Source: Candidatus Eisenbacteria bacterium
GTDB lineage: Bacteria > Eisenbacteria > RBG-16-71-46 > SZUA-252
Assembly (NCBI GenBank): GCA_005893275.1
Contig: VBOW01000035.1
Span: 1 to 64,000, forward strand
Direction: 5' to 3'
Length of the DNA: 64,000 nt
This document shows, one piece after another, positions 11,223-12,042 of the stretch. The position numbers were made by a program, and so were the translations under genes. Every line of letters begins with the position of its first letter. Positions within the stretch are counted from its first letter, which is position 1. A model generated the notes under the pieces. That model had not been told where the DNA came from and did no database searches. It saw only the letters and a list, made by a program, of their open reading frames with translations.

Positions 11223-11243
11223 CGGCCCCGCGTCGCGGGGCCG
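11223..11243. terminator. Perfect 9-bp hairpin between selenoprotein and M16 genes
   Basis: CGGCCCCGC and GCGGGGCCG form a perfect GC stem with a 3-base loop. It lies 36 bases after the selenoprotein stop and 21 bases before the M16 start, both on the minus strand. It lacks a T run on either side. It may be an attenuator or RNA-stability hairpin rather than a full intrinsic terminator. Confidence 0.45.
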
Positions 11244-11279: not shown

Positions 11280-11504
11280 TTACGTGGTCTTCTGGAGCGC
11301 TCCGATGATTTCCTTCGACTCGGGGAATCGGCCTACCGATTTCTTGGAGAAGATGACTTTTCCGTCCGCGGAAACTTCGAACACACCTCCACCGCCGGCG
11401 ATCAGCTTCGATTCAACACCCAACTGTTTCTTCAGCTCGGCCGCCAAACTGGAGGCCCTGGGGAGATAGTTTCACTCGCTACAGTACACGATCTCGATTT
11501 TCAT
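11280..11504 (-). CDS. selW: SelW/Rdx-family selenoprotein with in-frame UGA (Sec) codon
   Basis: From ATG 11504 to TAA 11282-11280 there are 75 codons. The only interruption is a TGA at codon 11 (11474-11472). Reading it as selenocysteine gives MKIEIVYCSE-U-NYLPRASSLAAEL. Further downstream come GGGGVFEV, DGKVIFSKK and GRFPE, all typical of bacterial SelT/SelW/SelH (Rdx) thioredoxin-fold proteins. The UGA occupies exactly the second redox position of the family's CxxC/CxxU motif (C8, U11). AAGGAGGG sits six bases before the ATG. About 74 residues is normal for bacterial members. Annotation pipelines would split or miss it. A nonsense mutation is the alternative, but 63 well-conserved codons after the UGA argue against decay. 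Confidence 0.88.
11444..11461 (-). promoter_or_regulatory. Candidate bacterial SECIS hairpin
   Basis: Immediately downstream of the UGA, CCAGG can pair with TTTGG (two G-U pairs) around an 8-base loop that begins with G, 16 bases after the UGA. This fits the loose bacterial SECIS pattern. The stem is weak, and a competing GGCC/GGCC fold exists at 11439-11457. Proposed from position and shape only. Confidence 0.35.
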
Positions 11505-11586
11505 GGGGGCCCTCCTTGGTGGGCGCGGCCGGGCTCGTGCCAGCACCGGCGCGCCACGGGTATTCTCCGCCCGCCCCGACGTGCTG

Positions 11587-12042
11587 TCAAGCTGCTGGGG
11601 TCCGCTTCCCGGCGATCATCCGGTCGATGGACAGGTTCCCCGCGCCGCCGATCAGGAGCGCCAGCGAAACGAGGAGGAGCGTCAGGGGATACTCGTAGCC
11701 ATGTCCCCGGCCGGCCTCGCCCATCCAGTTCAGGAAAAAGCCCCACTTCCAGTGCGTGGTCACGATCGCAACCAGCATGTTGATCGCGAGCCCGAGCGCG
11801 AAGAATCGCGTCAAGAATCCCAAGAGCATGGAGAACGCGCCGAGGAACTCGGTGAAGGCGGCGACGTATCCCAGGAATGAGGGCATTCCCATGCTGGCGA
11901 CGTAGCCCGCGAATCCCTGCAGGCCGGGGCCGTGATACATGCCGAGCACTTTCTGCGCCCCATGCATCCAGAAGACGAGAAAGAGCGCCAATCGAAGCGG
12001 GAGTTGCCAGTTCGTCGCGGTCGTGGAGAAAATGGATTTCAT
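11587..12042 (-). CDS. DoxX-family membrane protein
   Basis: The protein has 151 residues and four membrane helices. DoxX hallmarks are visible: RLALFLVFWMHGAQKVLGM near the N-terminus, then GYVAAFTEFLGAFSMLLGFLTR, and a third helix followed by W-rich loop residues. DoxX proteins are small quinone-linked or redox-associated membrane proteins, and several are tied to thiol stress. ATG 12042 has GGAGG 10 bases upstream and a TACAAT-like -10 at 12074-12069. The next gene on the strand encodes the thioredoxin-fold selenoprotein, so a shared redox role is possible but unproven. Confidence 0.85.
   Translation of the reverse strand: MKSIFSTTATNWQLPLRLALFLVFWMHGAQKVLGMYHGPGLQGFAGYVASMGMPSFLGYVAAFTEFLGAFSMLLGFLTRFFALGLAINMLVAIVTTHWKWGFFLNWMGEAGRGHGYEYPLTLLLVSLALLIGGAGNLSIDRMIAGKRTPAA

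Follow-up and report, generated by a model that had tools for sequence, protein, structure and literature searches.

The window analysed here, 64,000 nucleotides at the start of a contig from a Candidatus Eisenbacteria bacterium, carries on its minus strand a short selW-like gene interrupted by an in-frame UGA at codon 11. The features of the locus are:

11504 to 11280, minus strand: selW-like coding sequence, 74 residues plus TAA, with the UGA at codon 11 proposed to be read as selenocysteine (Sec)
11474-11472, minus strand: in-frame UGA, proposed Sec codon (codon 11), U11 of C8-S-E-U11
11511..11516, minus strand: Shine-Dalgarno sequence AGGAGG, 6 nt upstream of the ATG, read from the sequence itself
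11562..11590, minus strand: sigma-70-like promoter match TTGACA-17-GAGAAT, located 57 nt upstream of the ATG, a consensus match only
11457-11439, minus strand: SECIS hairpin GGCC-U-CC-AGUUU-GG-C-GGCC, spanning nucleotides 18-36 with the U of the UGA as nucleotide 1
11446..11450, minus strand: SECIS apical loop AGUUU, whose second nucleotide is the invariant G

The gene and its surroundings

The minus-strand frame translates as MKIEIVYCSE-U-NYLPRASSLAAELKKQLGVESKLIAGGGGVFEVSADGKVIFSKKSVGRFPESKEIIGALQKTT, which with the UGA counted as a residue is the full protein, and closes in TAA; 63 sense codons follow the UGA. An earlier sequence-only reading had proposed a hidden SelW/Rdx selenoprotein at this position. 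Its coordinates, length and motif positions (C8 and U11) were right, as was its count of 63 codons beyond the UGA, and the perfect Shine-Dalgarno sequence that it mentioned is the AGGAGG listed above; the strand, which it did not give, is minus. A plus-strand reading of 11280..11504 gave no recognisable protein.

On the minus strand the gene order is an aminopeptidase-like gene, a DoxX-like gene, selW and an M16 peptidase gene. The promoter-like TTGACA-17-GAGAAT is found where the DoxX gene ends, directly upstream of selW, so that selW may have a transcript of its own. Within the taxonomic family of the window, M16 follows selW at all seven loci and DoxX precedes it at four of the seven, and the order is lost outside this family. 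The earlier suggestion that the DoxX and M16 genes hint at a redox context therefore finds little support, since the M16 adjacency is confined to the family and DoxX is present at 4/7 loci; moreover, no convincing connection of M16 peptidases to redox function is apparent. The DoxX-like neighbour (11587-12042, minus strand) reached 63.5 bits with the model of the HvfX copper-RiPP maturation family, short of the cut-off of 80 for membership. A G+C-rich inverted repeat without a T run (GGCCCCGCG-A-CGCGGGGCC, 11224-11242) is located between selW and the M16 gene.

Family membership and predicted fold

The protein is a member of the SelT/SelW/SelH (Rdx) family, the similarity that had been read from the codons beyond the UGA. 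In profile searches it matched PF10262 (Rdx) with 70.2 bits (cut-off 22.6, E 1.7e-19), TIGR02174 with 58 bits (cut-off 34.2) and the NCBIfam equivalog model NF041051 with 99.1 bits (cut-off 88). The Rdx and NF041051 scores, together with conservation on both sides of the UGA in 31 other genomes and at 80 loci (see below), exclude a chance origin of the frame.

An AlphaFold2 model, built from 44 aligned homologues with U11 modelled as cysteine, has a pLDDT of 93.8 and a thioredoxin-like fold with the order E3-8, H14-28, E32-37, E42-46, E49-53 and H63-73, in which C8-U11 sits between strand 1 and helix 1. The top matches to this model in the PDB were the bacterial SelW-related proteins 2fa8, 2obk and 2ojl (TM 0.90-0.95 by query length), with 2fa8 the best (TM 0.91); after the bacterial structures came MIEN1 (2ljk) and mouse SelW (2npb, TM 0.72). 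The best match, Agrobacterium Atu0228, is a cysteine-type Rdx protein which, like the rhizobial plasmid copies, shares the fold but has CxxC in place of CxxU. Cysteine occupies the U11 column both in 2fa8 and in a Neorhizobium copy from a rhizobial plasmid, so that the in-frame UGA stands where homologues have cysteine. Thiol/selenol exchange is the likely chemistry at C8-U11. Eukaryotic SelW and MIEN1 belong to the same fold family as the window protein with lower similarity, and eukaryotic SECIS elements are found in the 3' UTR, whereas the bacterial element here lies within the coding sequence.

Bacterial relatives of this kind have been known since at least 2005. In the Sargasso Sea set no selenoprotein family was more abundant than SelW-like, with 48 genes (PMC1088965), and cysteine homologues of SelW-like proteins are few in organisms that use Sec (PMC1794560). 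The bacterial SelW-like proteins from the Sargasso Sea and from Geobacter, Desulfotalea and Symbiobacterium (PMC1088965; PMC1794560) share with the window gene the CxxU motif, a SECIS element whose small apical loop holds a G and a Sec form with few cysteine homologues, but differ in host lineage, which here is Eisenbacteria. Campylobacter SelW, of about 75-80 residues, falls under the same equivalog model (NF041051) and also has UGA as Sec; it comes from another phylum, and in C. jejuni (CJnc60) translation past the UGA has been confirmed by Ribo-seq and proteomics (PMC11955535), whereas that of the window gene is predicted. Eisenbacteria and selenoproteins were never mentioned together in the literature searched. 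The window gene adds a well-supported member to the family and is only mildly surprising.

Conservation of the UGA codon and the SECIS hairpin

A selW-like match was found in 32 of 59 genomes, its own included, and every match has exactly one internal stop, TGA. In the 30 of these frames that were read, the start, C8 and the C-terminal part are kept and the UGA occupies the same column, and a Shine-Dalgarno-like stretch lies upstream of nearly all of them. Close relatives that stop at the UGA or are frameshifted had been named as a possible refutation of the earlier reading; they show the same UGA, the same frame and the same end, and none stops or is frameshifted. Scanning genome contigs yielded 207 relatives, 80 of which were kept as named loci (some of these genomes overlap the set of relatives). 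According to their MAG labels they come from Candidatus Eisenbacteria, Acidobacteria, Planctomycetota/Phycisphaerae, Deltaproteobacteria, Myxococcota, Zixiibacteriota, SAR324, Betaproteobacteria, Nitrospirae and others. TGA stands at the Sec position in 80/80 loci and cysteine in 0/80, with a scan pattern that is biased towards close relatives; cysteine-type proteins occur further out. Among viral contigs, 177 pattern matches included no relative.

G002 and G003, two genomes from the same genus, have Sec machinery without a selW-like gene, which indicates that the gene is dispensable. Both also lack a close M16 orthologue (best identity 27-28%); replacement of selW in situ by a cysteine copy is not apparent in these genomes, the M16 orthologue being gone as well. 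Very weak second matches at G006:C16:48778-48981 and G040:C139:6201-6371 (23-30% identity, one TGA each) are possibly unrelated or distant Sec-type paralogues.

The SECIS hairpin, which the sequence-only reading did not include, starts 14 nt after the UGA and contains one U-C mismatch. Bacterial SECIS elements have been described as hairpins shortly downstream of the UGA with a small apical loop and a conserved G (PMC1088965; PMC4607533), and the position and loop G of the window hairpin agree with this description. The consensus is a GGCCnCC/GGnGGCC stem with an [A/G]GU[U/C]U loop. Codon 19, within the loop, is AGT in 19/19 relatives with serine and GGT in 9/9 with glycine, whereas in the long frames of these loci AGT makes up 4.8% of serine codons and GGT 16.8% of glycine codons; two further relatives have arginine (AGG). 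At the 80 named loci the codon is AGT in 69 and GGT in 11, with no other. The one cysteine-type copy that was read has GGC TGG (Gly-Trp) at codons 18-19, and so lacks the AGT/GGT loop codon.

Compared with synonymous-codon shuffles, the loop NGUNU is present in 28/30 sequences versus 8.7%, the number of stem pairs is 6.33 versus 4.65 and the mean hairpin MFE is -13.2 versus -8.4 kcal/mol; these shuffle counts are not independent probabilities, because the sequences are related. On the ungapped alignment pairing holds in 90.5% of pair cells, every slid register falls far below, and RNAalifold, unprompted, returned essentially the same stem. Two-sided changes occur at pairs 18-36, 21-33 and 22-32, with 21-33 changing from C-G to both G-C and U-A. 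The signal emerged only with the alignment and the synonymous-codon controls: for the window sequence alone the control is marginal (about 5-6% of shuffles equal it), the single-sequence fold of a wider 67-nt region does not exceed shuffles in stability (z 0.17) and an Rfam search gave no match.

Selenocysteine machinery and interpretation

The sequence-only reading implied that the host encodes SelA, SelB, SelD and tRNA-Sec, none of them in the window, and named a genome lacking them as a possible refutation. All four were found in the 2.88 Mb genome that carries the window (99.65% complete), each on a contig other than that of the window (C35). The selA match (576.2 bits) is on contig 20 and the selB match (359.1 bits) on contig 36, while contig 14 carries tRNA-Sec (69.1 bits, anticodon tca; ARAGORN) and, on the same strand at a distance of about 112 nt, the selD match (372.8 bits). 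This adjoining of tRNA-Sec and selD on one strand (G000:C14:124458-125590) is repeated in many relatives. In the same-genus genome G002 the selD match contains a TGA, unlike SelD of the window genome. As to other selenoproteins in the window genome, internal TGA codons were found in 0/8 AhpC/TSA matches and in 0/2 molybdopterin Fe4S4 matches, the latter with a profile that does not cover the formate dehydrogenase Sec residue.

tRNA-Sec was found in 38/46 relatives. In a search of 36 good genomes of relatives, a selA match was present in 19/19 with selW and in 11/17 without it (Fisher p about 0.006, calculated by hand), a comparison that is confounded by phylogeny because the six genomes lacking selA all lie outside the class. 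Cases of selW without a selA match are confined to two genomes that are only 65-80% complete (G042 and G044), and a third (G022, 75%) has only a selA fragment.

These observations lead us to propose, with a probability of about 0.97, that this is a genuine selW-like selenoprotein gene of a Candidatus Eisenbacteria-type bacterium with SelB-dependent Sec insertion at the UGA; the machinery, the conserved UGA and frame and the SECIS hairpin all support the original idea of a hidden, read-through SelW/Rdx protein. The cysteine form of the family is common, for example in rhizobia, and a cysteine codon (TGC or TGT) turned into TGA by mutation or sequencing error would leave a dead or misread gene. 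However, the TGA is common to 31 other genomes and to all of the named loci, and this sharing already refutes such an explanation; with the downstream frame and RNA hairpin also conserved, its likelihood is negligible. A conserved internal UGA would by itself also fit a general reassignment of the codon in the lineage, to tryptophan or glycine for instance, so that residue 11 would not be Sec. Against this, TGA ends four of the five neighbouring gene frames, which as ordinary stops argue that the code is not globally reassigned, and it also ends the selW genes of many relatives. The selA, selB and selD matches of the window genome contain no internal TGA, housekeeping genes have none in frame, and the UGA falls exactly at the redox position of the family in a genome with complete Sec machinery, making reassignment scarcely conceivable.

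The UGA might instead serve mainly as a regulatory stop, yielding mostly a 10-residue peptide, with read-through by Sec tracking the selenium supply. It does lie very early in the frame, and Sec insertion is generally inefficient, but conservation extends over the whole protein downstream as a folded domain, which argues that selection acts on the read-through product; we consider a mainly regulatory role very improbable.

For Sec insertion at codon 11, which we infer from sequence, translation would start at 11504, SelB with Sec-tRNA(UCA) would bind the hairpin beginning 14 nt downstream of the UGA and Sec would be inserted in place of termination. The product would be a 74-residue thioredoxin-fold protein with C8-x-x-U11 at the beta1-alpha1 loop, where it most likely performs thiol/selenol redox chemistry through formation and reduction of a selenenylsulfide. 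Both this redox activity and any partner of the protein are predictions.

A putative SelB-binding core, CC[A/G]GU[U/C]UGG within GGCCnCC..GGnGGCC, appears near-fixed and alike in Eisenbacteria, Planctomycetes, Acidobacteria and Deltaproteobacteria. That it reflects unusually strong constraint on this single SECIS across phyla, or recent horizontal spread of Sec-type selW together with its recoding element, is a speculative and rather unlikely proposition.

Omission of the selW-like gene by automatic gene callers, as had been predicted, is plausible by analogy with two other cases. In epsilonproteobacteria, selW genes were entirely missed by annotation (PMC4607533). On the Thermomicrobium roseum plasmid NC_011961.1 (408170-408409) the gene annotated as 'Rdx family protein' begins downstream of an in-frame TGA; the codons upstream of the annotated start (IEYCTS-TGA-GYRGRA) continue the family, so that this gene looks like a truncated selenoprotein call. 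The selW-like gene of the window is of a sort that tends to slip through standard annotation, and it shows that UGA is very probably decoded as selenocysteine in an uncultured lineage. Aligned across phyla, the SECIS element provides a clean case of a single coding sequence under overlapping constraints from protein and RNA.
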